Positions 27,720 to 62,888 of a stretch of 64,000 bases of DNA are shown in pieces. Below the pieces are notes generated by a model. It did no database searches. It was not told where the DNA came from and saw nothing but the letters and a program-made list of their open reading frames with translations. Position numbers and translations under genes: made by a program. This DNA comes from Trichlorobacter ammonificans. Lineage in GTDB: Bacteria > Desulfobacterota > Desulfuromonadia > Geobacterales > Pseudopelobacteraceae. Location of the stretch: positions 1,414,001 to 1,478,000 of the forward strand of contig NZ_OW150024.1 in NCBI RefSeq assembly GCF_933509905.1, given 5' to 3'. Every line of letters begins with the position of its first letter. Within the stretch, counting starts at the first letter, position 1.

Positions 27720-28991
27720 TCAGAACAGCTCTATGGCGGGAAGACGGCTCGACTGACTCTGCCCCCCGCCCACCGCCCGTGCATGTACTTCGCGCTGCTC
27801 ATCCATGACGTACCTGGAGAAGATCGATTCAATGGCAAACATGCCGCTTTTTACCCGCTCGATGGAGGCATCCCCCTGGCTGAGCTCGTCGGTGAGCGTG
27901 GCCATGTGTCGGGCGAAATCCTCCAGCATGCCGATGACCAGTTCAAGCTTCTGGCGGGTGATGTCCTGGAACTGGATGTTGCTCAGTGCCTCGATCACGG
28001 CCTGCTCGATGCGGCGGCTGGTCAGGTCCAGTTCATTGATAGTGGAGCAGACCGTGGTTTCGATGGAACGGGCACTTTCTTCCAGTTGCAGCAACTGGTG
28101 GTGGATCTGCCGGAACTGCTCCTGCTCGGCACGTTGCTGGGCATCAGCCTGTTTGTTGGAGAACTCCCGGTCGATCAGTGCCGCCATCTCCTTCATTCCC
28201 TGACCGATCTGGTTGGCGGTCTTGTCGACGGTGGAGGAAAGACGCTGAACCTCATCGGCAACCACGGCGAATCCCCTGCCGGCTTCTCCGGCCCGGGCCG
28301 CCTCGATGGCGGCGTTCAGGGCCAGCAGGTTGGTCTGGTCGCTGATATCCCGGATGTGGGAAACCAAGCCGGTCAGTTTCTCAACACTGCCCACGATGGA
28401 CTGGACCCGCTCCCGTTCCAGGCGGGCTGCCGCTTCACGGTCCGCTTGATGCTGCTCGATGGCCCGCAGCATCTGGCTGTTGTTGGCAAGCACCTCGTTC
28501 GAGCGGGCCATGGACTGCGATATGTCAGTACCAAAGGCGCTCATGCCCCGGATCAGGTCGCCGGTGGTCCGGTCGAGGAGCTGCAGGGTGGTCACGATCT
28601 GTTCTGCGGCGTCGTTGGTCTGGCTGATCACGTTTTCAAGGTGCGACCGGTTCAGGGTGGCGGTCTTCTGCAAAGCGCCGTGCAGTTCCCGCATCATCTC
28701 CACGATGTCGTCGCGTTTCACAACCTGGCACCCGATGGCGGTGTCGCAACGTTGGCTGATGCTGTTGGCGATAAAGCGGCCGGGCAGCGAGGCGGCCAGC
28801 CAGCAGACCGCACAGAGCAGGGCGGCTGCGACCGCGAACAGCAGGACGGGGCCGACCGACACAGGGGAGGGCAGCAGTGCCCAGGCCAGGAGGGCTCCGG
28901 CGCTTCCGCCTCCCAGCGCTGCCAACGGGGCCAGGAGGGGAATCATGCGGGAGCGCGCAATCAGCACGGAGTAGGTATCCAGTAACGACAT
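27720..28991 (-). CDS. MCP-like protein with CheZ-like DxxxQ motif
   Basis: The 423-residue protein has two N-terminal TM helices (about 14-32, 38-62) with almost no periplasmic part, then a cytoplasmic coiled coil with the MCP signalling tip [20 protein letters not shown]. After the tip it contains [12 protein letters not shown], where Asp343 and Gln347 form the DxxxQ pattern of CheZ phosphatases. It ends in PAIELF. The ATG at 28991 has an aagga ribosome site; one five codons earlier is possible. It could both sense within the membrane and dephosphorylate a receiver; this is inference. Confidence 0.82.
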
Positions 28992-29008
28992 GGGGGTGTC
29001 CTTCATGA

Positions 29009-29421: not shown

Positions 29422-29739
29422 TCAGTTGAACAGTCCCCAGTCGTTGTCGGGCGGTCTGTCTTCCTCCATGGCCGTTGTCTCATCACATGCCACCGGGCCG
29501 GCCGTCACTCCCAGGCAGCGGAGCCAAAAATTGTCGGCAGGGGGGGCCAGTACCGGTACCTTGCGCAGCTTGAGCAGTTGCAGGGGGGCCGTGTGCAGGT
29601 GCTCGCAGCCGGAGAGATCGACGCCGATGCCGGCATGGTGCGTGAGCGCTTCCAGCAGACCGTCGGTCTCCTCGATGCTGACCACTCCCTCCAGGATCAG
29701 CCGGGGGGGCGTGCTGTCGGTGTCAAGTCTCAGGGGCAT
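29422..29739 (-). CDS. STAS-like protein with acidic LF tail
   Basis: The 105-residue protein matches the STAS fold pattern (LILEGVVSIEETDGLLEAL then VDLSGCEHLHTAPLQLL). The serine usual in anti-sigma antagonists is replaced by histidine-threonine (LHTAPLQ). The tail PPDNDWGLFN is acidic and ends almost like those of the two MCP-like proteins. It overlaps cheA by 17 bases, so its product is probably made in proportion to CheA. Function in the array is not established. Confidence 0.7.
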   Translation of the reverse strand: MPLRLDTDSTPPRLILEGVVSIEETDGLLEALTHHAGIGVDLSGCEHLHTAPLQLLKLRKVPVLAPPADNFWLRCLGVTAGPVACDETTAMEEDRPPDNDWGLFN

Positions 29740-31804
29740 AGGCAATCACCTGGGGCAGGTTCAGCAGCAGCATGATCGAGCCATCGCCCAGAATCGTGCT
29801 GCCGGAGTAGAAGGTTGAGCGGGCCAGCATACCGGTAAGCGGTTTCATGACGGCATCAATGATGTCGCAGAACTCGTCCACCGCCAGTGCCACCATCTCG
29901 CCGCGTACCCTGAGTACCACAGCGGAAAAACCGGGTTTGAGCCAGTCCTGCGTGTCGTCCATGGCCAGTTGTCGCCCCAGGTGGTAGAGGGGCAGCAGTT
30001 CGCCGCGCACCTTGAGTCCCGGCGCGGTACCCATGGTCTGCACCTGGGTGAGGGGAAGATCCCCCAGGGTCTCGATCAGGTCATTGGCCGGGATGCCGAA
30101 GGTACAGCCGGCCTGTTTGACGGTCAGCAGCCGGGTGATGGCCATGGAAAGGGGCAGGGTGAGCCGCACGGTTGAGCCCTGTCCCAGAACGCTTTTGACG
30201 GAAACCTGCCCATTAAAGGAGGTGACCATGGTCTGGACAGCGTCCATACCGACTCCCCGGCCGGAAAGATCCGATATCTGGTCGGCAGTGGAGAAGTTGG
30301 GGGCAAAGATCAGCTGGATCACCTCATGGTCGGACATGGCCGCCAGCGATTCGGCGCCGGCGACCCCCTTTTCAAGGGCTTTTGCCCGAATCCGGGCCGG
30401 ATCGATCCCCCGGCCGTTATCGACGATCTCCACGACAATGGCGCCGGCGTCCTGGAAGGCGCGCAGCGTGATGGTTCCCTCCGCCGGTTTGCCGGCGGCA
30501 AGTCGCTCGTCGGGCAGTTCGATACCGTGATCAAGCGAGTTGCGGACCATGTGGACAAGGGGTTCGGACAGTGCCTCGATCACATCCTTGTCGGCCCGGG
30601 TCTCCTCACCCTCCATAACCAGGGTGATTTTCTTGCCCAGTTTGTTGGAGATGTCCCGCACCAGACGGGGAAAACGCTCGAATGCCTTGGAAACGGGCAT
30701 CATGCGCATCTCCATGGCCACATCCTGCAGCGAGGCCACAATCAGGCTGATGTTGTTGGAGCGGTTGTCCAGCTCCGTCGCCAGCTCCGGAACCCGGTAC
30801 ACCGTGGCGGCGCGCTGGCAGAGATAGGGGAGGGAGTTGCGGGCTACCAGCAGCTCTCCCACCAGGTCCATGAACTGGTTGACCAGCCGCTGGTCGACCC
30901 TGATGGAGGCGGTTGCCGTCCCCCGTTTCTGATCCGTTGCACCGCTGTCCCGCCGTTCGTCAGGATGAGGAGCGATTTCCTGCGGCAGTGACGGCAGTGC
31001 CGCCTCCGGAGGGGGGGGGACGGTCAGGAACTCCCTGGTGATCGTTGCCAGGGCAACCTGATCCTCCACGTACTGGAAGATGCTCCTGATCCGCTCCACC
31101 GATTCGCAGACAACCAGCCTGAAGGAAACCTGGCAGGTGAAGGGGTCGAACTCCTCCACCGGTGGAGGAGGATCGGGAAACAGCATTTCAAGTACCAGCG
31201 GCACCGGCAGCTGGCGCAGCAGGTTGACCGGGTCGTCCCCCAGAAAAAAACAGTTGGGATCAGGGCGGTACCAGAGCGCAACGGGGGGCGTGGCATGGTT
31301 CAGCAGTCCGTCAGGCCATTCCTGGTCAAGTCCGCGCAGCCAGGCAGCCAGCTCCTCGACCGCCGCACGGTCGCTTTCCGTCACGGCAGCCGTCGTCTCC
31401 GGCTCCTCATCCGCCCGGACCTCCATCAGGGCCAGCAGGCGCGTGCGCAGCTCCTGGCCGGTATTGGCGGCGCCCGGCGGCAGCCCCCCGGAGTCCTCAA
31501 TGGAGCCGAGCCAGGAGGAGACCAGATCCAGGACCGCCAACAACAGGTCCACGGATTCGGTATCCAGGCGACGCTGCCCGTTGCGCACCTGATCCATCAG
31601 GTCTTCGGCAATGTGGGTCAGGCGGGTGATCGGCTGAAACTCGGGAAAAATGCCGGATGTTCCCTTGATGGTGTGGAAATTCCGAAAAATGCCGTTGATC
31701 AGGGTTTCGTCGTGGTGGGCCTGCTCCAGTGCCAGCAAGTTGCGGGCGGCCTCATCCAGGTAGTCCCGCGCCTCGGCGACGAACTGCTCGATCAGGGCGC
31801 TCAT
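29723..31804 (-). CDS. cheA: Chemotaxis histidine kinase CheA (copy 1)
   Basis: The 693-residue protein has a P1 Hpt domain with phospho-acceptor His44 in FHTIKGTSG, a long linker/P2-like region (about 110-290), P3 dimerisation ([15 protein letters not shown]), P4 ATPase ([30 protein letters not shown]), and a CheW-like P5 to the end. All ATP-site boxes are intact. It autophosphorylates and hands phosphate to CheY/CheB-type receivers. The neighbouring block has cheR, cheB and cheD but its CheW must come from the genes at 43819 or 62928. Confidence 0.95.
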
Positions 31805-43048: not shown

Positions 43049-43669
43049 GGAACGCATCACGATACTGCCGATGACAACCGCAAGTATGCTGATGGTCACG
43101 ATAAGGTAATTTGCCCGCGTACCGGATGCCTGTACCTCCTTGCTGGTCTGTTCGTTGGCCTTGTTCAAAACATCCTTGATCGCGCTCAACTGCTCCCGCA
43201 CCTTTGCCAGGCTTGGCGCCGACACCGTGGTGTAGATATGGGCTGCTTGGCCCAGATCGCCCCGTGCTAAGGCAGACTTGATGGTGACTGCCGATTCATG
43301 GAGGGTTTTGTGAGGCGCTTCGATCGCTTGCAATGGAGTGGAAATACCGGGAACCATGGTTTCGGCACGTTTCCTCTCTTCCCCGTAATACCACTTGCCA
43401 AAGGCACACTTGTGCGGATCGGGCTGGGCAGTTAGATTGTCAGCCTTGCCCGATGCCAGTGCGCCGGTCACATTGTTGGCCCAGGTCAGGTGGTCCACTT
43501 CCTTTTGGATGGTATCGGCGGTCAGATGGGCGATCGTGTCGGACCGTTTGAATTGCTGCAAGACAGTGTAAAGAGTGTTGGCGCCCAATGCTCCTGTAAG
43601 AATGACCAGCACCAGCAAGACGCCGAAGCCAGCACTCAGCCGTGAGCCGATTTTCAAATTTTTCAGCAT
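40796..43669 (-). CDS. Methyl-accepting chemotaxis protein with periplasmic CZB domain and poly-HAMP (receptor A)
   Basis: The 957-residue protein has TM1 at about 13-31, a periplasmic region with the CZB zinc-site pattern (H60-LTW, C88-AFGKW, H120-KTLH124, with 24- and 26-residue spacers) and TM2 at about 188-204. Then come a HAMP (about 205-258), four tandem 91-residue HAMP-like repeats (267-630), one more HAMP, the MCP tip [19 protein letters not shown], a flexible linker and the tail EFEKF. The C-terminal 750 residues are almost identical to receptor B (44394-47270). The ATG at 43669 was chosen because it starts [11 protein letters not shown] like receptor B; the open frame to 43804 crosses the upstream terminator. 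Confidence 0.92.
41780..42871 (-). repeat. Four tandem 273-bp repeats in receptor A
   Basis: Units in coding order are 42871-42599, 42598-42326, 42325-42053 and 42052-41780. Each encodes 91 residues with the pattern [14 protein letters not shown] and [17 protein letters not shown], then [14 protein letters not shown] and IKNNLN; each is probably two HAMP-like modules. Units 2 and 3 are the most alike. Confidence 0.92.
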
Positions 43670-43706
43670 GGAGGTTTCCCCTTTGCAAGCATATTCGAAT
43701 GCCCGA

Positions 43707-43734
43707 AGATTACCAGAAGAGCGCCAAAGGTCAA
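43707..43734 (-). promoter_or_regulatory. Possible promoter of receptor A gene
   Basis: Minus-strand TTGACC (43734-43729) and TAATCT (43712-43707) with a 16-base spacer, about 40 bases upstream of the ATG and downstream of the cheW terminator. Weak match. A TGGCGC-N5-TGGT string in the spacer also partly resembles a sigma-54 site. Confidence 0.35.
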
Positions 43735-43762
43735 TCAGGTAATCATCGCCTTGTCCTGACAG

Positions 43763-43797
43763 AAAAAAGCCCCATTCCCGCTCAGGAATGGGGCTTT
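43763..43797 (-). terminator. Rho-independent terminator after cheW
   Basis: A 13-bp perfect stem (43766-43778 with 43785-43797) and 6-base loop give, on the minus strand, a GC-rich hairpin followed by TTTTTT. It ends the receptor B-cheW transcript. Confidence 0.88.
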
Positions 43798-43818
43798 CGT
43801 TCACTGCTTCTTCGTAAG

Positions 43819-44393: not shown

Positions 44394-46646
44394 TCAGAAT
44401 TTTTCGAATTCGTCATCCAGGTGGTCTTTTGCTGTGCTTCCCAGGTCGATCTGCACGCCGCCTCCTGTTTTGGAGGGTTTGGCCGCGGTGTGTGTCGGCG
44501 GCAGCGACCGTTTCGATACCGCAGGTGCCGACCGGTGGGGAAGGGCACGCTGCATGCCGTGAGTGTCCAACTGGAAGAAGGAGATGGTGGCCTTCAACTG
44601 CTCGGCCTGGCTGGTCAGCTCTTCCGTGGTGGAGGCCATCTCTTCCGCTGCCGAGGCGTTCTGCTGGATCACCTGATCCAGTTGCTGGATCGCCTTGTTG
44701 ATCTGGTCGGCACCGGCATCCTGCTCCTTGCTGGAGGCGCTGATCTCCTGCACCAGTTCGGCAGTACGCTGGATGTCCGGCAAGATGGCGGTCAGCATCT
44801 GACCGGCAGCCTCGGCAACCTGAACGCTTCTGCCCGACAGTTCGGATATCTCGCCGGCTGCGGTCTGGCTTCTTTCCGCAAGCTTTCTCACTTCGCTGGC
44901 AACCACCGCAAATCCCTTGCCGTGCTCGCCGGCTCTCGCCGCCTCAATGGCGGCGTTCAAGGCCAGAAGGTTGGTCTGGCGGGCAATCTCTTCAATGATG
45001 CTGATCTTGGTGGCAATCTCCTTCATGGCAGCCACCGTCTCCTGAACCGCCTTGCCGCCCTCGCGGGCATCGGCAGCGGACTTGTTGGAGATCTTCTCGG
45101 TCTGGGAGGCGTTGTCGGCGTTCTGCTTGATGCTGGAGGACATCTCCTCCATGGAGCTTGAGACCTCTTCGGCGCTTGCCGCCTGCTCGGTTGCTCCCTG
45201 GGAGAGGGACTGGGCGGTTGCCGCCAGCTCCTGACCGCCGGTGGCAACGCCGTCGGCAGCAGCCTGGACTTCACGCACCACCTCTTTCAACTTGTCCACC
45301 ATGTTCTGCAACGATTCCATCAGCTCATCCTGCTCGCTGCGCTTCTTCAGCTCAACCATCAGGTTGCCCTGGGCAACCAGCTTGGCGTTGGCAGTGATGG
45401 AGTTGGTGGCTTCGATCAGCACGTTCAGGTTGTTCTTGATGGCGTTGAAGTCGCCGTTGTAGCTGTCCGTAATGACTTTGGGCATGTCACCCTTGGAGAT
45501 GCGCTCCACGTACTCGGCAGCCACGTTCAAGGGACCAATCACCGCATCCAGGGTGTCGTTGACACCCTGGACGATCTTGCGGAAATCCCCCTGGTGCTTG
45601 GAAGCATCGGCACGGGTGGCAAGTTTGCCGTCAACTGCTGCCTTGGAGAGCAGGTTGGCGTCGGATACCAGGCTGTTCACCGCATCAATGCAGGTGTTCA
45701 GGTTGTTCTTGATGGTGTTGAAGTCACCGTTGTAGCTGTCGCTGATTTTGGCGGGAATATCGCCTTTTGATATCTTGTCAACATAGTCTGCAGCCACATT
45801 CAGGGGGCCGATGACGGCATCCAGGGTGTCGTTGACCCCGGATACGATCCTGCGGAAATCCCCCTGGTGCTTGGTGGCATCGGCACGGGTGGCAAGTTTG
45901 CCCTCAACCGCCGCCTGGGAGAGCAGGTTGGCATCGGCAACCAGGGCGTTGACGGCGTCAATACACTGGTTGAGGTTGTTCTTGATCTCGTTGAAGTCGC
46001 CGTTGTAGCTGTCGGTGATCCTCGGCGGAATGTCACCCTTGGAAATGCGGTCCACGTACTCGGCAGCCACGTTCAAGGGACCAATCACCGCATCCAGGGT
46101 GTCGTTGACCCCGGACACGATCCTGCGGAAATCCCCCTGGTGCTTGGTGGCATCGGCACGGGTGGCAAGTTTGCCCTCAACCGCCGCCTGGGAGAGCAGG
46201 TTGGCATCGGCAACCAGGGCGTTGACGGCGTCAATACACTGGTTGAGGTTGTTCTTGATTTCGTTGAAGTCGCCGTTGTAGCTGTCGGTGATCCTCGGCG
46301 GAATGTCGCCCTTGGAAATGCGGTCCACGTACTCGGCAGCCACGTTCAGGGGACCAATCACCGCGTCCAGGGTGTCGTTGACACCCACCACGATCTTCTG
46401 GAAATCACCCTGGTGCTGGGAGGCATCGGCACGGGTGGCAAGCTTGCCCGCAATGGCAGCGTCGGACAGCATGCCGGCATCCTTGATCAGGGCGTTCACC
46501 GCATCCACCATCTTCTGCATCGCCTGCTGCAGAACACCGGTCTCGTCGTTGCTGGTGGTGTCCAGGGTCACGTTGGTGTCACCCTGGGCAATCTTGTTGG
46601 CCGCATCAACGCAGGCATTGACCGGACGGGTGATGGAACGGGTGAT
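44394..46646 (-). repeat. Long direct repeat, copy B (receptor chassis)
   Basis: 2253 bases matching copy A (40796-43048). It also matches copy C (59997-62072) almost perfectly from base 45265 to 46464; outside that stretch copy C has about nine differences. Confidence 0.9.
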
Positions 46647-47270
46647 CATCACCCCCAAGAGCACGCCCAGGGCCAGGGCCACCACCAGCAGGCTGATGAC
46701 AATGGTCTTTGCCTTGGATGCATCGGCAGCAGCAGTTGTGCCGGCTTGGTTCATCAGTTCGGTCTGGTAGTGAATAATGTCGTTAACGGCAGCAATATAG
46801 GCATTCTGGGATTTACGGAGATCGCCCATGAGTATTGCTAGGGCTTCCTCTGACTTACCGGCTCGTAGCAGCTTAAGGTAGTCTTCCGTTGATTTTCGAT
46901 AGCCCGGAATGACATCATTTAGCGCTTTAAGCAGTCCCTTGCCTTTTTCGCTGGTGATAGTGCTGTTGAGATATTTCAGTTTCTCATCAATTATTTTTCT
47001 GGCTTCCGGTATCCGGGCATACTCCTTTTCCATATCCTGGGGAGATTTGACCAATGCCATGTTGCGCAGAGCGCGGGCAGCAACGTTTACCTGATCAATG
47101 ACATCGTTGGCAGCCACGGTTTTGGGAAACATTTCATTTGCCATCCTGTTGATATTGCCGTTCATGTCGTTGATTTCCATAACGGAAAATCCACCGACAA
47201 CAACCAGCAGTACCATGATGACGCCGAAGCCGAACCCTAACCGGGAGCCGATCTTCATGTTCTTGAGCAT
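44394..47270 (-). CDS. Methyl-accepting chemotaxis protein with four-helix sensor and poly-HAMP (receptor B)
   Basis: The 958-residue protein has TM1 at about 13-32, a helical periplasmic sensor of the 4HB_MCP type (about 35-190), TM2 at about 190-210, a HAMP, four 91-residue HAMP-like repeats (268-631), the MCP signalling domain and the tail EFEKF. From the HAMP onward it equals receptor A with one residue difference seen. It starts [16 protein letters not shown] after an aaggaggt ribosome site. cheW follows in the same operon. Ligand unknown. Confidence 0.93.
45378..46469 (-). repeat. Four tandem 273-bp repeats in receptor B
   Basis: Same four 91-codon HAMP-like units as in receptor A, displaced by 3598 bases. 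Confidence 0.92.
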
Positions 47271-48017: not shown

Positions 48018-48404
48018 TCAAATCAGATGGTGTTTTTGCAGCAGTTCGACAAAGGTCCGGCGCATGACCGGCTTGGGAAGATAGTCGTCGCACTCGCCCT
48101 GAATCAACGCCGAAACCATGTCATCAGGGTCGCTGCTTGCGGTTACCATGAATGCGGTTGCGCGAACTGCCTGCTTTTCCGCCTCAAGAGAGCGTATCCG
48201 CTGCATGGCTTCGTGACCGCTCATGGAGGGCATGCTGATATCCATACAGATCAGATCAAAGGGGCTGCCCCCGTCGATGGCCGCCGTTACAGCGGCAATG
48301 GCTTCCTTTCCCGAAGCCGCGGTTGACACTACGGCGAACTCTTCAAGCATTACTTGCAGTATCTCCCGGTTTATCTCCTGATCGTCAACTACCAGTGCTT
48401 TCAT
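48018..48404 (-). CDS. Single-domain response regulator
   Basis: The 128-residue receiver has VDDQE at the N-terminus, phospho-acceptor in LICMDISMPSMSG (about D57), Thr/Ser in MVTASSDPDDMV and Lys in YLPKPVMRR. It resembles the receiver at 55360 (CMDIMMP, ALDDPKTVF) more than the GATGW group, so the island has at least two CheY-like subfamilies. Confidence 0.9.
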   Translation of the reverse strand: MKALVVDDQEINREILQVMLEEFAVVSTAASGKEAIAAVTAAIDGGSPFDLICMDISMPSMSGHEAMQRIRSLEAEKQAVRATAFMVTASSDPDDMVSALIQGECDDYLPKPVMRRTFVELLQKHHLI

Positions 48405-48450: not shown

Positions 48451-49893
48451 TCAGGCGGCGTTCTCCCGTTGTGCCTGCAGTACGAACGACTGCTCGATAT
48501 CGGCGGCCCTGAATTCGAGGCCGGTCATGCCCAGGTAGCGAAAGCCGCCTTCAAGGGTGTTTTCTATGATGGTAAGGGGGCCGTCCCGCTCCTCCTTCAC
48601 CTGTTCACTGAGGGTACCCAGGACAATGGTGACTCCCTCGTAGAGGTGCTTCCTGACGTTCACCTTCGGGTTACAATTTTCGTAGACCCGCGAGCGTATC
48701 TCCTGAATCTGTTTGGTGATGGCCAGTTTGCGGACACTGAAATCCATGGGGTTCTTCAGGGCTGCCGGCGAAGAGCTGAACTGCTCGATCAACTGCTTCA
48801 GGTCATTGAACAACTGGTTGATTTCAAAAAGGTCACGATGATGAGCGCCGGCAATGACCCGTGTCTTGAGCGATGTAACCGTACCGAGCACTGCGGTCTC
48901 AATACCGCCAAGGGCAACGCTCTCGCCGCCGGCCAGTCCTCCCTTGGCGACTTTGATGGCGCCCAGGCAGTTGATGGTACAGTTACGGATTTCGACTTCG
49001 GCAGTGACCGTGCCGTCACATTCGATGGCGGTATCGTACAGGAAGTTGGCATTCAGATTACCACCGCAGACAATGGTACCCCGTCCCTGGCCGTTCATGC
49101 CGCACACGGAGATGTCACCCTGGGATTTGATGGTACAGGCACCGACGTTACCATGAATCCTGATTCCCTTGTCGGCCTGCACCGAAAAACCGTCCAGTAC
49201 GTCACCCTTGATTTCCACGAACCCCTTGAACTGGATGTTGCCAACCTTAAAGTCGACATCGCCGGAGACGGTATAGAGTTCTTCCACCGATATATCGGCT
49301 TCCTTGCAATAGATCCGCCCGGTGGCGGTGGCGAACAGCGAGACTCCGTCGTCATCCAGGCGGACATTCTGGCCGATCTTTACGGACAGGGGGACGCCGG
49401 CCTGCGGCGGGATGGTTTCACCATGGATGGTCATGCCGGGAGTGCCCGGCTCGGGCGCCATGATGGTTCCAATCAGGTCTCCCGGATCGACGTTGAGAAA
49501 CACCTGGACCTGGCGAAAGTCAACCTGATTATCATTGTTCCCGGCGTCGCCCTCCTCCGGTGCGGGAGGTTGTACGGCCAAGTTGATGAAACCGTTTCTT
49601 CCAACCACCATCGGTGTTCCCACGGCCAGCAGCAGGTTGGAAACTGCGGTGCCGGTGGCGGCTGCATGCAGGAGTCGCTGCAGGCTCTCCTGCTGAATTC
49701 CTTCGAGAATTTTGTACTGCCGCAGGAAACCGGTCAGATCGGTTTCGGTCAGAGGAGCCCCCCCAAGACCGGAGGGGGCATAACTGCACCAGCATTCAAG
49801 CCGGTTGGGGGTGATTTCAAAGGAAACGGTGTACCCCTGGCGTTTTGCCTGGAGTACAATCGTTTTCTGCGGTTCTGCAGACGGTTCGCTCAT
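48451..49893 (-). CDS. FapA (DUF342) family protein
   Basis: The 480-residue soluble protein has an N-terminal region, a central DUF342 domain (VDPGDLIGTIMAPEPGTPG, GETIPPQAGVPL) and a right-handed beta-helix (SGDVDFKVGNIQFKGFVEI through DGTVTAEVEIRNCTINC), with a C-terminal helical hairpin. The family is polymer-forming-like and linked to surface or polar structures; no enzymatic role is established. It sits 14 bases after the CheR-like gene. Confidence 0.86.
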   Translation of the reverse strand: MSEPSAEPQKTIVLQAKRQGYTVSFEITPNRLECWCSYAPSGLGGAPLTETDLTGFLRQYKILEGIQQESLQRLLHAAATGTAVSNLLLAVGTPMVVGRNGFINLAVQPPAPEEGDAGNNDNQVDFRQVQVFLNVDPGDLIGTIMAPEPGTPGMTIHGETIPPQAGVPLSVKIGQNVRLDDDGVSLFATATGRIYCKEADISVEELYTVSGDVDFKVGNIQFKGFVEIKGDVLDGFSVQADKGIRIHGNVGACTIKSQGDISVCGMNGQGRGTIVCGGNLNANFLYDTAIECDGTVTAEVEIRNCTINCLGAIKVAKGGLAGGESVALGGIETAVLGTVTSLKTRVIAGAHHRDLFEINQLFNDLKQLIEQFSSSPAALKNPMDFSVRKLAITKQIQEIRSRVYENCNPKVNVRKHLYEGVTIVLGTLSEQVKEERDGPLTIIENTLEGGFRYLGMTGLEFRAADIEQSFVLQAQRENAA

Positions 49894-49907: not shown

Positions 49908-50519
49908 TCAAGCATCTGATTTTCTGAACAGTTGTGCATCCGGCGTTACCTGCTCGAAAAGTCGGCTGATCTCCGCTGGAATCTTCTGGGTGTTTTCGGT
50001 CGCAAAATAGCCACCTGGTGCAAGACTGCGGTGATACATTTTCAGCACTTCAATACGCTGCTCATACGAAAAGTGCAAGAGGACGTTTTTGCACACGATG
50101 AGGGAGTAGTCGGAACCAACCGGCTGGAGCTCCAGCAGATCGTTGTATTTGAAAAAGACCCTGTTGCGGATTCTGTCAATAACCTTGTGATATCCGGGTC
50201 TTTTGGCTGATTCTTCAAAGTATTTGGTGAATATTTCAGAGGGAATGCGCTGTAATTCTTCGGTTTTGTATTCTCCAGCAGTAACGATGTCACCGAAGTT
50301 GTTTTCCCGGTCATAGTCCGTGGCATCCAGGTACAGGGTGTTGAATCCCATTTCTCCCATCCGTTCCGCAAACAGGATCGCCAGGGTATAGGGTTCCTGT
50401 CCCAGCGCGCAGCCGGCATCCCATACCTTGATGCGCAGCCGCCCCAGGGCCAGCTTCAAGGTAGCCTCAACAGCGTATTCAAGAACCGGCAGATCGCGAA
50501 AGAAAAAAGTGAATGCCAT
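49908..50519 (-). CDS. Short CheR-like methyltransferase
   Basis: The 203-residue protein matches only the SAM-binding C-terminal domain of CheR: DAGCALGQEPYTLAILF, DATDYD, VCKNVLLHFSYEQR and SLAPGGYFATENT. The N-terminal receptor-binding helical domain (about 70-80 residues) is missing, although FFFRD near the start matches the CheR junction (FFREP). It may methylate a different protein or act with a separate binding partner. Confidence 0.8.
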   Translation of the reverse strand: MAFTFFFRDLPVLEYAVEATLKLALGRLRIKVWDAGCALGQEPYTLAILFAERMGEMGFNTLYLDATDYDRENNFGDIVTAGEYKTEELQRIPSEIFTKYFEESAKRPGYHKVIDRIRNRVFFKYNDLLELQPVGSDYSLIVCKNVLLHFSYEQRIEVLKMYHRSLAPGGYFATENTQKIPAEISRLFEQVTPDAQLFRKSDA

Positions 50520-50629: not shown

Positions 50630-52750
50630 TCATGCTTTGGAGAGCTCGGCGGCACGTACCAGCACGCCCGGGTCAAGGATCAGGGCAACGGTACCGTCGC
50701 CCAGGATGGTGGCGCCGGAGATGCCCTGCACGTCGCGGTACAGCTTGCCCAGGGATTTGATGACGGTCTGATGTTCGCCCACCACGTCGTCCACCACGAA
50801 ACCGACCCGGCTGTTGCCGACCGACAGAATGACGATCTGCTCGATGTCCGGCTGATGTTCGGTGATGCAGAACTGCTCGCGCAGGGGGATATACGGGATA
50901 AGTGCCCCCCGCACGTTGGCCAGATGTCTGCCGTGAGCCGCTTCAACATCGGCTCTGCTCAGTTCGACGCACTCCTCGACCATGGAAAGCGGCAACACGA
51001 AGAAGCTGTCGTCCACCCGGACCAGCAGGGTTTCAATGATAGCCAGGGTCAGCGGAATCTTGAGGGTAATGACAGAGCCTTTGCCGGGCTCACTGTTGAT
51101 ATCAATAGTACCCCTGAGGGCTTCTATGGCCTTCTTGACCACATCCATGCCGACACCGCGTCCGGAAACGCTGGTAACTTTCTGTGCCGTGGAAAAGCCG
51201 GGCGCAAAGATCAGGTTATAAATTTCCCTGTCCGGCAACTCGGTGGCGGCGGTAATCAGACCGCGTTCGACCGCTTTTGCCCGGATACGTTCCTTGTTCA
51301 GGCCGGCACCGTCATCGCGGATGGTAACCAGCACGCTGTCGCCGGAATGTTCGGCTCCCAGATGCACGATCCCCTTCGGTGACTTGCCGGCAGCCTTGCG
51401 TTCTTCCGGCATCTCGATGCCGTGATCGATACTGTTACGGATCAGGTGCACCAGTGGATCGTTCAACTTTTCAATGACCGTCTTGTCCAGTTCGGTCTCG
51501 GCGCCACTGGTTTCAAGGTCAATCTCCTTGCCCAGTTCCGCGGAAAGATCCCTGACCAGCCGCTTGAACTTGCTGAAGGTGGAGCCGATCGGCAACATCC
51601 GCATGGTCAGGGTGGTGTCGCGCAGTTCGGCAATCAGCCGTTCCACCTCTTCGGCAATGGCAATCAGGTCACCGTCGTTGCGTGTTTCAGCGGTTTGCGA
51701 GAGATGGGCCTGTACCGTGACCAGCTCGCCCACCAGATTTACCAGGTGGTCCAGGCGTTCCGCCGGTACCCGGACCGAAAGCGCGGTGTCGGCGGTAGGG
51801 GAGGCGACCGCTTTTTCCTGTCGGACCTGCCGGACCTGCTCTTGCTCCTTCAGTGCCGACTCGACCTTTGACGCCGGAACGATGCCCTGCTCAACCAGTA
51901 TTTCGCCGAACCGTTTCTGCATGGAGAGGATTTTCTGCATCTCCACCGGCGAAAGGTCACCCCGTTCCACCAGAATGTCGCCCAGCTTCTTGTAGTTCTC
52001 GGAGCTGGCCGCCAGGGAACAGGTGTCGTTGATCAGGTCTATCTTCAGTTCGCAATCGTCCTCGACGAAGATGAAGACATCCTTGACCGCTTCCAGTCCG
52101 CTGGTGGTGGTAAGAATGATGTCCCAGTACATGTAGCAATGTTCGGGAGTCAACTCATGCAGCAGCGGGATGCTATCCAACTGGGCAATGATGTCGCAGT
52201 GCCCAAGATCGCGCAGTTCGTTGAGCAGTGCCGACGGATTGGTTCCCCGCAGCAGCACATCGGGTTCAGGCTTGAAGCGAATGCGGAAGGTACGGTAGCA
52301 CAGCGGTTCGTCGGTCGTTGCGGAACCAGGCCCCGTTTCGGCAAGGATTGGTCGTTTTTCTTCCTCCGGCAGCAGCGCCTGCAGGCCGGTGATGATCTGC
52401 CGTCCCCGGTTTTCATCGGCGGGCGGGCCGCCGGCGGAAGCCGCCAGCATGACGGAAATCTGGTCCCGCGACTGCAGGGTCAGGTCAAGCAGGGTTCTGG
52501 TAACCCGCATCTTTCCGTTGCGCACCTGGTCGAAGACGGTTTCCACCTCGTGCGTAAAGCGGGCGATGTCGTCGAAACCGAACATTGCCCCTGAGCCCTT
52601 GATGGTATGCATGGCCCGGAAGACCCGGTTGATCAGATCGCTGTCCTCTGGCTGTTCCTCCAGCTCAAGAAGGGAGTTTTCCAGCTCGGCCAGCAGTTCC
52701 GTAGCCTCTTCGCGGTAGGCGGCGATATGTTGTTCCTGAGGTGATGACAT
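50630..52750 (-). CDS. cheA: Chemotaxis histidine kinase CheA (copy 2) with MshEN-like insert
   Basis: The 706-residue protein has P1 Hpt with His48 in AMHTIKGSGAMFG, a P2-like region (about 160-250) and two tandem 24-residue motifs (KLGDILVERG and RFGEILVEQG, about residues 254-303). P3 (LVNLVGELVTVQAHL), P4 ([30 protein letters not shown]) and a CheW-like P5 follow. The tandem motif resembles the MshEN/T2SSE_N repeats that bind c-di-GMP in some pilus ATPases. ATP-binding boxes are intact. cheY lies 54 bases upstream. Confidence 0.93.
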   Translation of the reverse strand: MSSPQEQHIAAYREEATELLAELENSLLELEEQPEDSDLINRVFRAMHTIKGSGAMFGFDDIARFTHEVETVFDQVRNGKMRVTRTLLDLTLQSRDQISVMLAASAGGPPADENRGRQIITGLQALLPEEEKRPILAETGPGSATTDEPLCYRTFRIRFKPEPDVLLRGTNPSALLNELRDLGHCDIIAQLDSIPLLHELTPEHCYMYWDIILTTTSGLEAVKDVFIFVEDDCELKIDLINDTCSLAASSENYKKLGDILVERGDLSPVEMQKILSMQKRFGEILVEQGIVPASKVESALKEQEQVRQVRQEKAVASPTADTALSVRVPAERLDHLVNLVGELVTVQAHLSQTAETRNDGDLIAIAEEVERLIAELRDTTLTMRMLPIGSTFSKFKRLVRDLSAELGKEIDLETSGAETELDKTVIEKLNDPLVHLIRNSIDHGIEMPEERKAAGKSPKGIVHLGAEHSGDSVLVTIRDDGAGLNKERIRAKAVERGLITAATELPDREIYNLIFAPGFSTAQKVTSVSGRGVGMDVVKKAIEALRGTIDINSEPGKGSVITLKIPLTLAIIETLLVRVDDSFFVLPLSMVEECVELSRADVEAAHGRHLANVRGALIPYIPLREQFCITEHQPDIEQIVILSVGNSRVGFVVDDVVGEHQTVIKSLGKLYRDVQGISGATILGDGTVALILDPGVLVRAAELSKA

Positions 52751-52804: not shown

Positions 52805-53170
52805 TTAACCGAGAACTTTCTTCACAACCGCGATTAACTGCTCCGGCTTGAACGGTTTGACGATCCAGCCGGTGGCGCCGGCAGCCTTGCCTTCCTGCTT
52901 GCGCGACTCCTGGGATTCGGTCGTCAGCATGACGATCGGGATGAATTTGTTCAGGGCACTGGCGCGGACGCCCTTGATCAGGCCGATACCGTCAAGGTTG
53001 GGCATGTTCAGGTCGGTGATCAGCATGTCCACCTTCTGGCCGTTCAGCTTGGTCAGGGCATCCTTGCCGTCCACCGCCTCAATCACGTCATAGCCGTTCT
53101 GCTTCAGGGTAAAGCTCACCATCTGCCGTACGCTGGCCGAGTCATCGGCCGTCATGATCACTTTTGCCAT
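52805..53170 (-). CDS. cheY: Chemotaxis response regulator CheY
   Basis: The 121-residue receiver has D9-D10, phospho-acceptor D53 in LITDLNMPNLDG, Thr in MLTTES and Lys in WIVKPFKPEQ. It directly precedes cheA copy 2 and follows the STAS gene by 1 base, so it is the likely cognate CheY. Confidence 0.94.
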   Translation of the reverse strand: MAKVIMTADDSASVRQMVSFTLKQNGYDVIEAVDGKDALTKLNGQKVDMLITDLNMPNLDGIGLIKGVRASALNKFIPIVMLTTESQESRKQEGKAAGATGWIVKPFKPEQLIAVVKKVLG

Positions 53171-53171
53171 A

Positions 53172-53528
53172 TCAGTTTACTCCTCTACACCAGATACAGG
53201 TGATGTCACTATTGTATTTACAGACGTCGTAGCCCTGCAGGCCCAGGCTGCTGATCGTTGTTTGTACGCACGCGGGTATTCCGCCGGAGAACGCGAACAT
53301 TTTTCCTGCACAGAGGGCGGTGTGACAGGCTGAGCAGATCAGTTGGATGCCGCACAGGTCTATTTCCTCAAGAGAAGCGGCGTCCAGTTTTACCGTGGCG
53401 GCCTGAGGGAGCTGTTCCGTGAGAAAGGCACGGAAACCGGCCACGGTATCGATGGCCAGCCTGCCGCCAATGGTGACGAGTATCTGACCGTCATTGCCGA
53501 ACGTATGAGAAACGGTAAGGTCGGACAT
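53172..53528 (-). CDS. STAS domain protein with cysteine-rich C-half
   Basis: The 118-residue protein has the STAS pattern ILVTIGGRLAIDTVAGFRAFL then VKLDAASLEEIDLCGIQLI. The usual phospho-acceptor serine is replaced by cysteine (DLCGIQ). Several further cysteines follow (ICSACHTALCAG, YDVCKYNSD, CIWC). It lies between the MCP-like protein and cheY. STAS proteins in chemosensory clusters are known in Geobacter, but their biochemical role is not settled. Confidence 0.85.
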   Translation of the reverse strand: MSDLTVSHTFGNDGQILVTIGGRLAIDTVAGFRAFLTEQLPQAATVKLDAASLEEIDLCGIQLICSACHTALCAGKMFAFSGGIPACVQTTISSLGLQGYDVCKYNSDITCIWCRGVN

Positions 53529-53545: not shown

Positions 53546-55339
53546 TCAGAATAAATCGACATTGTCCCCGAAGCCGGAGCTTCCGGCGCCCTGGGACTGT
53601 GAGCCGTGCAGTTTGACCACGGCTCCGTGACGTGCGGCCATCATCTCGTGGATCAGGCGTTCACTTTCCATGGTGTAGCGCTGTTCCATATGCCGCAGGT
53701 TGGAGCTGAACTCCGCACTGGCCGGCACCAGCCTGCGCGCTTCGCGGTAAATCTGCTCCAAAACGGTCTCCGCTTCGTGGGCCAAGCGAGTGGCCTCTTC
53801 GTGGACATGCACTCCGGCGGTGAGGGTCTCGATCTCCTCCGACAGCCCGGTTGCGGTGGAGGTAAGGGAAGCCAGGCGGTCGTGAAGGGTGGCGGTAATC
53901 CTGCCCAGACGACTGATGATCTGCTCCGCTTCATGCTCCATGATGGCGACCTGGCCGAGGGAGTGCTGCTCCGCTTCACTCTCCTGCCGGATATCCACGG
54001 TAATGGCGTTGATCTCCCTGAGGGTTGCCGAAACCTCTTCGGTTTGAATCACAGCGTCAAGCGACAGGCGCTTGATTGCTTCAGCCAGCACCCCCAGTGC
54101 CGCCCCCTCCGGCCCCGTATGGGCGGCCTTGATCTGGGCGTTGAGCGCGATCAGGTTGATTTCCGAGCCGACTGCCTCGATATCACTGACAAAGCCTGAA
54201 ATCTGGGCCGTGGTGGTGGCCACTTCCGCCATGGCTGACGCAAGCTGCTGGTCGGCGGCGGCGCACCGGTTGAGGATGGTGATCACGTCCCGCATGTTGC
54301 GCTGCATGGCGGCAAGCAGCGTGGTGTCGCCGGAACCGGAATCCCCCATCAGTGCCATTTGCAGCTCCTGGCTGACCTGACTTTGCTGCGCACCGATGCT
54401 GCGGATGCTCTCCAGGATCGCCAGGGTCGCCCTGGCGAGCTGGTCAGCGGCATGGTGGGTCTGGGCCGCCTGCAGTTCGCAGACATCGCCGGTTTCAGAT
54501 ACCAGGGAGGTGCAGGCATCATTGTTCAACTCGTCCGGCTTGGCGCAGGTGTGTTGCCGCAGTTTTTCCAGGGCTTCAATGACATGCTCAATCTGCTGGC
54601 GGGTAATATCATGGAACTGCATGGAGGAAACCACGGAGGCAATTTCGGCGGCAACTTCCGCGGCAACTTCACGGGCGCGGCTGCCGACCTGGGTGCAGGT
54701 CTGATTCAGCGAGAGTACGGTATCAATGCCGGAACCGATGTCGGAGAGAATGCGGGTGGCATCGGCGTGCTGCACGGCGCCGGCGGAGCGGACCTTGTCC
54801 AGGTTGTCCTGAATCAGGTTTTCCAGAAACTGGCGCTGCGCCATGATACCGGCTGATTTTTCGTTGACAGCGTGGGACAGCTTTTCGACATCCAGCGCCA
54901 GGGTGGTGAAACCGGCGCCCAGTTCGCCGATCCGTGCCGATTCGATCTTGGTAGAGATGGAGAGCATCCGCAGTGCCTTGTCCATTTTCTGGAATCCCTC
55001 CAGCGGCTGCACCACGGTGTCGAGCTGCGACAACACCTGTTCGAGGATATGGCTGCTGGCCTCCCCCTGGGCACGAACCCGTTCCAGGTAGGCCTGCATA
55101 TCGGCAAAGAGCTGGTGGAGTTGGGCGGTCAGTTGGCGGCTCTCGTCACCGGAAACCAATTCAACCAAGTCGTTGGCTGCAGAGGAGATACTGCCGGAAC
55201 GGAGAGCAAAGTTCTGCAACCGTTCGCCGAGCTGGAGAAACTGGTCCTCGGTTTCGCCGGCGAACCGTTTCAGGACGTGCAGGGGCGGCTCAAGTCGAGT
55301 ATGCCACTCATACAATTGTTGACAGGTTGTCTGGGCCAT
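53546..55339 (-). CDS. Soluble two-tip MCP-like protein with CheZ-like motif
   Basis: The 597-residue cytoplasmic, almost wholly helical protein has two MCP-tip-like segments, a degenerate LRMLSISTKIESARIGELG (about residue 118) and INLIALNAQIKAAHTG (about 390). Between them QFHDITRQQIE carries Asp244 and Gln248, the DxxxQ pattern of CheZ. The tail is GDNVDLF. No TM or canonical sensor domain is present. It could be a scaffold or a phosphatase for the adjacent CheY. Confidence 0.8.
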   Translation of the reverse strand: MAQTTCQQLYEWHTRLEPPLHVLKRFAGETEDQFLQLGERLQNFALRSGSISSAANDLVELVSGDESRQLTAQLHQLFADMQAYLERVRAQGEASSHILEQVLSQLDTVVQPLEGFQKMDKALRMLSISTKIESARIGELGAGFTTLALDVEKLSHAVNEKSAGIMAQRQFLENLIQDNLDKVRSAGAVQHADATRILSDIGSGIDTVLSLNQTCTQVGSRAREVAAEVAAEIASVVSSMQFHDITRQQIEHVIEALEKLRQHTCAKPDELNNDACTSLVSETGDVCELQAAQTHHAADQLARATLAILESIRSIGAQQSQVSQELQMALMGDSGSGDTTLLAAMQRNMRDVITILNRCAAADQQLASAMAEVATTTAQISGFVSDIEAVGSEINLIALNAQIKAAHTGPEGAALGVLAEAIKRLSLDAVIQTEEVSATLREINAITVDIRQESEAEQHSLGQVAIMEHEAEQIISRLGRITATLHDRLASLTSTATGLSEEIETLTAGVHVHEEATRLAHEAETVLEQIYREARRLVPASAEFSSNLRHMEQRYTMESERLIHEMMAARHGAVVKLHGSQSQGAGSSGFGDNVDLF

Positions 55340-59976: not shown

Positions 59977-60005
59977 TGATGTCAGAATTTATGATGTCAG
60001 AATTT
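59977..60005. repeat. 14-bp direct duplication at the end of receptor C
   Basis: TGATGTCAGAATTT occurs at 59977-59990 and again at 59992-60005. The second copy contains the receptor stop codon; the first repeats the last coding bases and stop just beyond it. Confidence 0.85.
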
Positions 60006-62072
60006 TTCGAATTCGTCATCCAGGTGGTCTTTTGCTGTGCTTCCCAGGTCGATCTGCACGCCGCCTCCTGTTTTGGAGGGTTTGGCCGCGGTGTGTGCCG
60101 GCGGCAGCGACCGTTTCGATACCGCAGGTGCCGACCGGTGGGGAAGGGCACGCTGCATGCCGTGAGTGTCCAACTGGAAGAAGGAGATGGTGGCCTTCAA
60201 CTGCTCGGCCTGGCTGGTCAGCTCTTCCGTGGTGGAAGCCATCTCTTCCGCTGCCGAGGCATTCTGCTGGATCACCTGATCCAGTTGCTGGATCGCCTTG
60301 TTGATCTGGTCGGCACCGGCATCCTGCTCCTTGCTGGAGGCGCTGATCTCCTGCACCAGTTCGGCAGTACGCTGGATGTCCGGCAAGATGGCGGTCAGCA
60401 TCTGACCGGCAGCCTCGGCAACCTGAACGCTTCTGCCCGACAGTTCGGATATCTCGCCGGCTGCGGTCTGGCTTCTTTCCGCAAGCTTTCTCACTTCGCT
60501 GGCAACCACCGCAAATCCCTTGCCGTGCTCGCCGGCTCTCGCCGCCTCAATGGCGGCGTTCAAGGCCAGAAGGTTGGTCTGGCGGGCAATCTCTTCAATG
60601 ATGCTGATCTTGGTGGCAATCTCCTTCATGGCAGCCACCGTCTCCTGAACCGCCTTGCCGCCCTCGCGGGCATCGGCAGCGGACTTGTTGGAGATCTTCT
60701 CGGTCTGGGAGGCGTTGTCGGCGTTCTGCTTGATGCTGGAGGACATCTCCTCCATGGAGCTTGAGACCTCTTCGGCGCTTGCCGCCTGCTCGGTTGCTCC
60801 CTGGGATAGGGACTGGGCGGTTGCCGCCAGCTCCTTCCCGCCGGTGGCAACGTCGTCGGCAGCAGCCTGGACTTCACGCACCACCTCTTTCAACTTGTCC
60901 ACCATGTTCTGCAACGATTCCATCAGCTCATCCTGCTCGCTGCGCTTCTTCAGCTCAACCATCAGGTTGCCCTGGGCAACCAGCTTGGCGTTGGCAGTGA
61001 TGGAGTTGGTGGCTTCGATCAGCACGTTCAGGTTGTTCTTGATGGCGTTGAAGTCGCCGTTGTAGCTGTCCGTAATGACTTTGGGCATGTCACCCTTGGA
61101 GATGCGCTCCACGTACTCGGCAGCCACGTTCAAGGGACCAATCACCGCATCCAGGGTGTCGTTGACACCCTGGACGATCTTGCGGAAATCCCCCTGGTGC
61201 TTGGAAGCATCGGCACGGGTGGCAAGTTTGCCGTCAACTGCTGCCTTGGAGAGCAGGTTGGCGTCGGATACCAGGCTGTTCACCGCATCAATGCAGGTGT
61301 TCAGGTTGTTCTTGATGGTGTTGAAGTCACCGTTGTAGCTGTCGCTGATTTTGGCGGGAATATCGCCTTTTGATATCTTGTCAACATAGTCTGCAGCCAC
61401 ATTCAGGGGGCCGATGACGGCATCCAGGGTGTCGTTGACCCCGGATACGATCCTGCGGAAATCCCCCTGGTGCTTGGTGGCATCGGCACGGGTGGCAAGT
61501 TTGCCCTCAACCGCCGCCTGGGAGAGCAGGTTGGCATCGGCAACCAGGGCGTTGACGGCGTCAATACACTGGTTGAGGTTGTTCTTGATCTCGTTGAAGT
61601 CGCCGTTGTAGCTGTCGGTGATCCTCGGCGGAATGTCACCCTTGGAAATGCGGTCCACGTACTCGGCAGCCACGTTCAAGGGACCAATCACCGCATCCAG
61701 GGTGTCGTTGACCCCGGACACGATCCTGCGGAAATCCCCCTGGTGCTTGGTGGCATCGGCACGGGTGGCAAGTTTGCCCTCAACCGCCGCCTGGGAGAGC
61801 AGGTTGGCATCGGCAACCAGGGCGTTGACGGCGTCAATACACTGGTTGAGGTTGTTCTTGATTTCGTTGAAGTCGCCGTTGTAGCTGTCGGTGATCCTCG
61901 GCGGAATGTCGCCCTTGGAAATGCGGTCCACGTACTCGGCAGCCACGTTCAGGGGACCAATCACCGCGTCCAGGGTGTCGTTGACACCCACCACGATCTT
62001 CTGGAAATCACCCTGGTGCTGGGAGGCATCGGCACGGGTGGCAAGCTTGCCCGCAATGGCAGCGTCGGATAA
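59997..62072 (-). repeat. Long direct repeat, copy C (receptor chassis)
   Basis: About 2.08 kb aligned without gaps to copies A and B. By eye there are about seven base differences between 59997 and 60867, none seen over the next 1.2 kb relative to copy B, then loss of identity beyond about 62068. Confidence 0.88.
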
Positions 62073-62888
62073 CATGCCGGCATCCCTGGTCAGGGCCTTG
62101 ATCGCCTCCACCATGTTGGCCATGGAGGCCATCACGCTGGTGGTATCGCCGCTTTGCAGGCTGATCTCGCGGGACAGGTCGCCACGACCCACCAGGTTGG
62201 CGATTTCCCCCACCTCTTTGGGATCGCCGCCAAGCTGCTTGCCGACGATGGCAGCTATGAAGAAGCCGAGACCGATAGAAAGCACCACCCCGATAGTCAG
62301 ACAGATGGCCATAAGTGTGGTGGCCTGCTTGGCGGTTGCTGCGTTTTCAGCTGCAACCAGTCTCCCTTGCTTTAGTTTCGACTCAACCAGCTTTTCAATG
62401 GCATTCTGCTCGTCACGGGAGGCTTTGCCCGCTTCACCATGCAGGAGCGCCAGGGCCTCAGTATTTTTGTTTTCCATGGCCAGCGCCACGACCTTGTCAA
62501 GTAAGGGGCCATAGGCAGCTTTGGCCCGCTTGAATTCTTCAAACAGTTTCCGGCCTTCGTCCGTTAAAATAGTCTTTTCAAACTCCGCTGCCTCTTTGTC
62601 AATGGTTTCACGCAGCTCTTTGATGCGCCCCTGAAATCGCTTGTTATCTTCAGCGCTGGTGGCGGTAATGATGTCGCGGGCATTTACGCGCAAGCGTTGA
62701 AACGCGGTTGCGACCTCACTGATGTTGCCCAAGGGAACGGTAACTTTTTCATAGAGTGTTTTGTCCGCTTTTTCGATCTTGTTGATATCGTAAATGCCGA
62801 CGCCGCCGATAATGCCGGCAACAATGGCAACCAGCATGAAACCGGTGAGCAGTTTTGCCTTCAGGGTAAGATTGTAGAACCACTGCAT
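59997..62888 (-). CDS. Methyl-accepting chemotaxis protein with four-helix sensor and poly-HAMP (receptor C)
   Basis: The 963-residue protein has TM1 at about 11-31, a helical periplasmic sensor (about 35-190) of the 4HB type, TM2 at about 195-218, and its own HAMP ([20 protein letters not shown]) unlike those of A and B. The four 91-residue repeats (273-636), signalling domain and EFEKF tail are nearly identical to A and B. cheW lies 39 bases upstream in the same operon. Confidence 0.93.
60981..62072 (-). repeat. Four tandem 273-bp repeats in receptor C
   Basis: Same 91-codon HAMP-like units as in receptors A and B, displaced by 19201 bases from A. Confidence 0.92.

Follow-up and report, generated by a model that had tools for sequence, protein, structure and literature searches.

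What does a protein with two chemoreceptor-like tips and a CheZ-like motif contribute to a che operon? The question is posed by P0001, a protein encoded in the stretch of Trichlorobacter ammonificans DNA that we analysed (the window; 64,000 nucleotides, positions 1,414,001 to 1,478,000 of NZ_OW150024.1), which belongs to a genome consisting of one 3.06-Mb contig. A first-pass annotation, drawn from the sequence, had described a soluble, two-tip MCP-like protein and proposed it as a scaffold-phosphatase. P0001 is a genuine, conserved protein without a name in the libraries that we searched, and combines a receptor hairpin with a CheZ-type motif; beyond MCPsignal, it fits no named che family in Pfam or NCBIfam, as the annotation had held. 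We propose that it is a receptor-derived, soluble signal-termination component of the che operon, acting as a CheY-P phosphatase or as a CheY-capturing adaptor, and we give this reading a probability of about 0.48.

P0001 comes second in a closely spaced series of genes on one strand (REC–P0001–STAS–CheY–CheA–CheR–FapA-type–receiver), with STAS, CheY and CheA genes lying where they had been annotated (Table 1). Downstream of P0001 homologs, STAS, CheY and CheA are found together at 67 of 70 testable loci, and CheY only at the remaining 3; these loci are drawn from the best 80 of 344 relatives, of which 10 were omitted for having at most 2.6 kb of downstream sequence. The residue at the STAS phosphorylation site is C59 in the window protein and T in 54 of 77 aligned STAS proteins. 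At three loci (L122, L124 and L139, the first two being the same places as L063 and L064), a two-hairpin gene is accompanied by CheY, with neither STAS nor CheA directly downstream and with CheB-like genes near; these copies possibly serve other pathways. Separately, the MshE-type cyclic di-GMP-binding motif (NF053729) occurs as two stretches in the CheA of the operon (38.2 bits against a cut-off of 38, best at residues 280-305), a sequence feature that might couple a chemotaxis kinase to c-di-GMP.

Table 1. Features of the P0001 operon and of the P0002 cluster, in window coordinates.
Feature	Position	Strand	Basis
P0001, two-hairpin MCP-like protein with CheZ-like motif, 597 aa	53546..55339	-	
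P0001 hairpin tip 1, residues 124-155 (E133, R136, G138, E139)	54875..54970	-	conservation; structural alignment to 6s1k_E
P0001 CheZ-like motif Q241-x-H-D244-I-T-R-Q248-x-x-E-H, residues 241-252	54584..54619	-	
P0001 hairpin tip 2, residues 391-426 (N400; K404 opposite tip 1 E133)	54062..54169	-	
P0001 conserved RYTMxSERxIH, residues 554-565	53645..53680	-	
P0001 C-terminal GDNVDLF, after variable linker	53549..53569	-	
Receiver-domain protein, directly upstream of P0001	55360..55758	-	
STAS-domain protein	53172..53528	-	PF13466, E 1.7e-10, over cut-off
CheY-type single receiver domain	52805..53170	-	
CheA	50630..52750	-	
CheR	49908..50519	-	
FapA-type protein	48451-49893	-	same run as P0001
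Further receiver	48018-48404	-	same run as P0001
P0002, sister protein: hydrophobic N-terminal stretch, one MCP tip, motif (18 protein letters not shown), tail PAIELF	27720..29006	-	PF00015, 84.2 bits
CheY-type receiver beside P0002	29009..29371	-	PF00072, 102.1 bits
107-aa protein in STAS place, STAS-like by eye only	29422..29745	-	no Pfam match
CheA of P0002 cluster	29723..31804	-	

The open reading frame is widely conserved. Of 141 genomes in the order, 102 have P0001 matches at E<=1e-40, as do 80 of the 103 that are of good quality (own genome included in both counts). In a sample of 297 genomes drawn from the phylum, 34 give a P0001 profile match at E<=1e-30. The 344 relatives mentioned above come from a search of a species-level genome collection. 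Where the titles of the best 80 are specific, they are of Geobacter, Desulfuromonadales or Desulfobulbaceae/Desulfobacterales type, the others reading only Deltaproteobacteria or Proteobacteria; the closest named relatives among these 80 come from Geobacter sp. (80%) and Trichlorobacter (~61%). The 64-sequence alignment used below comprises 63 of the 80 loci and the window P0001, after exclusion of 12 by a similarity filter and of L090, L120, L126, L149 and L152. Motifs were counted in a set of 132 homologs that are distinct in their last 200 residues, including the single-tip proteins of L180 and L181 and contig-cut fragments. In one genome (G204), the homologous gene appeared to be split in two; we rejected this possibility because the two half-matches overlap in sequence at contig ends and look like one gene cut by assembly.

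The motif residues D244 and Q248 are located as first annotated and are present in 64/64 aligned homologs. They sit within the nearly invariant consensus Q241-x-H-D244-[IM]-x-R-Q248-[QK]-x-E-H, in which Q241, R247, E251 and H252, together with V237 ahead of it, are likewise invariant; H243 is found in 63/64, where CheZ has Q. As evidence for likeness to CheZ, the bare DxxxQ originally noted is uninformative, occurring in 91/92 other MCP-like ORFs and in 513/866 other ORFs, whereas the extended pattern Q.[QHN]D[ILM]..Q is specific, being present in 128/132 homologs, 0/92 other MCPs and 1/866 other ORFs. Two of the four homologs missing this pattern keep the D and the Q with D-A, and the other two are without the region.

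One profile comparison places this resemblance in the N-terminal half. We built a CheZ profile from 19 of 20 Desulfobacterota CheZ loci (L211 left out), which scored above 8 bits on 28/64 N-halves, 2/64 C-halves, 3/40 MCPs (C-terminal 300 residues, from 40 of the 64 MCP ORFs) and 0/64 shuffles, and its catalytic D and Q fall on D244 and Q248 in 56/64 N-halves. The NCBIfam CheZ model NF041271 matches residues 207-264 of P0001 with 18.3 bits against a cut-off of 350 (E=0.0013) and 13/64 homologs at E<=0.1, and the Pfam CheZ model PF04344 scores 15.1 bits on the N-half, below its cut-off of 30.7. At E<=0.1, Pfam finds CheZ in 25/64 N-halves (best 4e-4) and MCPsignal in 61/64, while unrelated Pfam families match 12-17/64 N-halves, some with better E-values than CheZ. 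Profile-profile alignment to CheZ with hhalign stays near noise (1-2%), the motif-less C-half scoring the same as the N-half, and is less telling than the HMM comparison with the 19-locus profile. In place of AXXFQ before DXXXQ, P0001 has S-[ML]-Q-x-H-D and the single-tip relatives have FQD, and CheZ is not among the structure matches listed by Foldseek and VIA-align for the N-half and full-length models. By sequence, the similarity to CheZ is local and register-true, with common descent not proven. Since the family scores fall below cut-off, P0001 is not a CheZ member; it may work like one.

The C-terminal tail lends itself to the same comparison. Its consensus is mostly G-D-N-[VIF]-[DE]-[LF]-F, a pattern that ends 128/132 homologs and 0/92 MCPs, and the motif or the tail is missing in 6 of the 132. 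RYTMxSERxIH and the tail are separated by 16-120 residues of linker, the median being 30 across 126 proteins selected because they contain all three motifs. From the conserved motif and its register, D244 and Q248 would act as a CheZ pair that hydrolyses CheY-P, with GDNVDLF on its flexible linker capturing CheY in the manner of the CheZ C-terminal peptide. Judging from gene order, the adjacent CheY would probably be the substrate, with the STAS protein as a CheS-like partner of CheA.

The same conserved residues could instead belong to a non-catalytic adaptor, whose helix and tail would bind CheY (or CheA or STAS) near the array, with D244 and Q248 taking part in binding only. That the invariant patch is wider than the pair itself and that the tail is conserved as well would suit such an adaptor, and CheX or CheC proteins in the genome could supply the phosphatase. 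We nevertheless hold it to be unlikely, as single-tip relatives from other classes, described below, preserve both the exact i,i+4 spacing of the D/Q pair and its CheZ register.

The genome probably encodes other CheY phosphatases, as five matches to CheX and six to CheC exceed the cut-off, some of the genes being shared between the two. Its single CheZ match (20 bits) falls short of the cut-off and lies in an MCP-like frame that lacks the motif. Three Geobacter genomes have been reported to be without cheZ, so that, according to the authors, some CheZ-independent mechanism must be at work (PMC2577667); against this 2008 report, the legend of a figure in a Geobacter review has CheZ drawn into the G. 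sulfurreducens scheme (PMC8396549). We considered whether P0001 replaces CheZ, which predicts mutual exclusion. The P0001 gene and CheZ instead occur together above expectation, in 15 of 297 phylum genomes against ~9 expected (odds ratio 2.4, p 0.025), so that 15 of the 34 P0001-bearing phylum genomes also have CheZ and replacement is not supported. For our reading of P0001, the motif, the tail, the gene order and the reported absence of cheZ count in favour; the CheX and CheC matches, the co-occurrence with CheZ and the review scheme count against. In several phylum genomes, of which G282 (a 537-aa frame) and G309 (683 aa) are examples, one and the same frame carries two separate CheZ-family matches ~190-260 residues apart, suggesting CheZ with a long insertion.

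Both tip-like segments of P0001 that had been annotated are present, and they belong to two related hairpins. Aligned with hhalign (probability 92), residues 37-263 pair with 308-533 across 226 columns, the only gap being one residue long, and tip 1 G138 falls on tip 2 G409. Against an MCP profile, the N-half reaches 93% and the C-half 97%, which identifies both as MCP hairpins. The earlier suggestion of an internal fusion or duplication thus holds for the presence of two related MCP hairpins in one chain, whereas origin by duplication and origin by fusion are not told apart in these sequences, as the half-to-half match is no stronger than that of the N-half to the MCP profile and the raw self-identity is 29 residues at the best offset against 27 at the next. 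The Pfam MCPsignal model (PF00015) scores 44.1 bits on the whole of P0001, over its cut-off of 34.6 and with its best stretch at 365-507, and 21.6 bits on the N-half alone, below cut-off. No stretch of P0001 is hydrophobic enough for a membrane helix, in agreement with its description as soluble.

The predicted structure of the N-half (pLDDT 89.8, pTM 0.54) agrees with this assignment. All 14 Foldseek matches with E<=0.001 come from chemoreceptor entries, and the first seven rows returned by VIA-align are chemoreceptors, at Z values of 13.4 to 14.2 that are near chance level for helical bundles. The N-half model covers the whole length of 3g67_B (Z 13.5, 1.7 Å r.m.s.d. over 212 aligned residues, TM 0.89 by target length), and its residues 88-189 superimpose without gaps on 340-441 of 6s1k_E (1.3 Å), the receptor chain in a core signalling unit from E. 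coli. The offset of this alignment puts E133 on position 385, R136 on 388, G138 on 390 and E139 on 391; we take E385 and R388 of Tsr to be tip residues for trimer, CheA and CheW contacts. Secondary-structure assignment gives one helix, 110-262, in both the full-length and N-half models and does not place the first turn, which the structural alignments placed. For the full-length model (mean pLDDT 81.9, pTM 0.59), receptors account for four of the 5 Foldseek matches at E<=0.001; its top VIA-align rows are unrelated helical bundles, so the comparison is not specific, and its C-half matches 3zx6_A with a Z of 9.5 and an r.m.s.d. of 3.7, too low to decide for a helical bundle. We therefore assign an MCP hairpin to the N-half by model comparison and to the C-half by sequence. 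A fold incompatible with MCP hairpins, a prospect raised by the first-pass annotation, did not emerge when looked at for the N-half.

Extending the 6s1k_E offset would bring D244 near receptor position 496, presumably in the second methylation helix. By this extrapolation, the motif lies on the returning helix of hairpin 1, at its base, approximately where receptors have that helix. It is thus part of the first hairpin and not, as first described, a separate element between the tips.

The two tips are unlike. In tip 1, E133 is present in 64/64 and R136 in 55/64 aligned homologs; in tip 2, N400 is present in 64/64, K404 stands opposite E133 in 61/64 and a variable residue stands opposite R136. 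With two MCP cytoplasmic hairpins, one chain could make, without a dimer, the four-helix bundle that receptors make as a dimer. Because tip 1 keeps the residues for trimer, CheA and CheW contacts and tip 2 does not, tip 1 may dock at the array in one orientation, or P0001 may sit beside the array. A single chain with unlike tips could assign to particular halves the axial place and the place facing CheA/CheW that the two subunits of a dimer take in receptor trimers.

A natural soluble single-chain chemoreceptor, whose two hairpins would stand in for a receptor dimer in controlling CheA while the motif is secondary, would account for the MCP fold of the N-half and for the MCPsignal score of the whole protein; soluble single-chain MCP signalling domains are known, with function not known by the account given of them (PMC4692393). 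The tip 2 lysine opposite E133 and the variable residue opposite R136 argue against this identity, as do two absences: Pfam and NCBIfam recognise no sensor domain in P0001, and the C-terminal EFEKF carried by three of the window's MCPs is absent from it. We judge a receptor of this kind improbable. Among the MCPs of the window, those at 40796-43804, 44394-47270 and 59997-62888 have near-identical last 700-760 residues (up to 9 mismatches), made up partly of 91-residue repeats, and differing N-termini, which looks like recent duplication or gene conversion. That P0001 is an ordinary degenerate MCP with a coincidental DxxxQ, as the ubiquity of the bare motif in MCP-like ORFs and the weak CheZ profile signals would allow, is very hard to reconcile with D and Q in every aligned homolog, an extended motif found in none of the 92 MCPs and a conserved gene order.

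The motif also occurs in proteins with one tip. The window encodes such a sister protein, P0002, with a canonical tip in the gene run CheA–107-aa protein–CheY–P0002; it had been said to end in the same GDNVDLF tail, and ends in PAIELF. Of 8 loci with MCP-like matches examined in this genome, that of P0002 alone carries the motif, and few genomes of the order have a protein of its type (7/141 at E<=1e-45). One tip, FQD[IV]xRQ and PxIELF are also found in proteins encoded on plasmids of Sphaerotilus, Methylobacterium and Methylosinus; these are three of four plasmid loci inspected, the fourth, from Rhodovastum (L240), being an ordinary MCP. The Sphaerotilus and Methylobacterium plasmid clusters read CheA–short protein–(ParA)–response regulator–single-tip protein, their short proteins scoring 21.3 and 19.7 bits with STAS_2, below the cut-off of 29.2, and the Methylosinus single-tip gene has no CheA beside it. 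The gene annotated as ParA family inside the Methylobacterium che cluster (L238, 3267-4028) is possibly concerned with array positioning. In two phylum genomes, single-tip forms adjoin CheY and CheA (L180 and L181). Motif-bearing single-tip proteins thus occur across several groups of Proteobacteria. The two-hairpin form appears to be derived from them, another hairpin having come to lie after the motif and before the tail.

A broader proposal, which we consider doubtful, is that P0001 and its single-tip relatives constitute an unnamed family of CheY phosphatases built on a receptor hairpin and spread over several proteobacterial groups. The catalytic pair would then replace the second methylation helix, tip 1 would be docked and tip 2 kept out, and a possible evolutionary link between receptors and CheZ would come into view.

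If P0001 proves to have phosphatase activity, it would help to explain how bacteria without the usual off-switch end swimming signals. CheX and CheC are one candidate for the CheZ-independent mechanism of Geobacter; a receptor-shaped phosphatase encoded beside CheY would be another. Such an off-switch would be built from the receptor's own part and placed where the signal arises, and it would suggest what the puzzling STAS proteins encoded in che operons partner with.

Set beside known systems, P0001 resembles CheZ (PF04344) in its D-x-x-x-Q pair of the same register, helical hairpin, linker and conserved C-terminal tail. It differs in falling below the family cut-off, in its MCP tips, in having two hairpins per chain, in the H before D where CheZ has Q, and in its tail sequence. 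As outlined for CheZ, the layout comprises AXXFQ/DXXXQ and a conserved C-terminal tail on a linker (PMC7750401), and the linker and tail of P0001 resemble that layout. None of the titles and abstract openings listed in our literature searches describes an MCP with a CheZ motif, and none of six motif strings occurs in the article text searched, which does not include figures.

Among receptors, the hairpin fold of the N-half is that of the Thermotoga maritima soluble receptor (3g67; 1.7 Å over 212 residues). With the natural soluble single-chain receptors of Rhodospirillum centenum and others, P0001 shares a soluble chain that contains a pair of MCP signalling hairpins, its C-half being assigned by sequence; the description of those receptors, in contrast, does not mention a CheZ-like motif or tail (PMC4692393). 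The subunits of each dimer in a receptor trimer are described as differently placed, one at the axis and one able to meet CheA/CheW (PMC4692393).

The closest operon that we found in print is rhizobial, encoding CheS, a STAS protein that binds CheA, and CheT, a DXXXQ protein with a predicted CheZ-like structure (PMC12654446). CheT of Sinorhizobium and Agrobacterium differs in being reported to bind CheR and in being encoded away from CheS in the cluster; by the description given, it resembles P0001 in being a DXXXQ protein from a che cluster that also encodes a STAS protein (PMC12654446).
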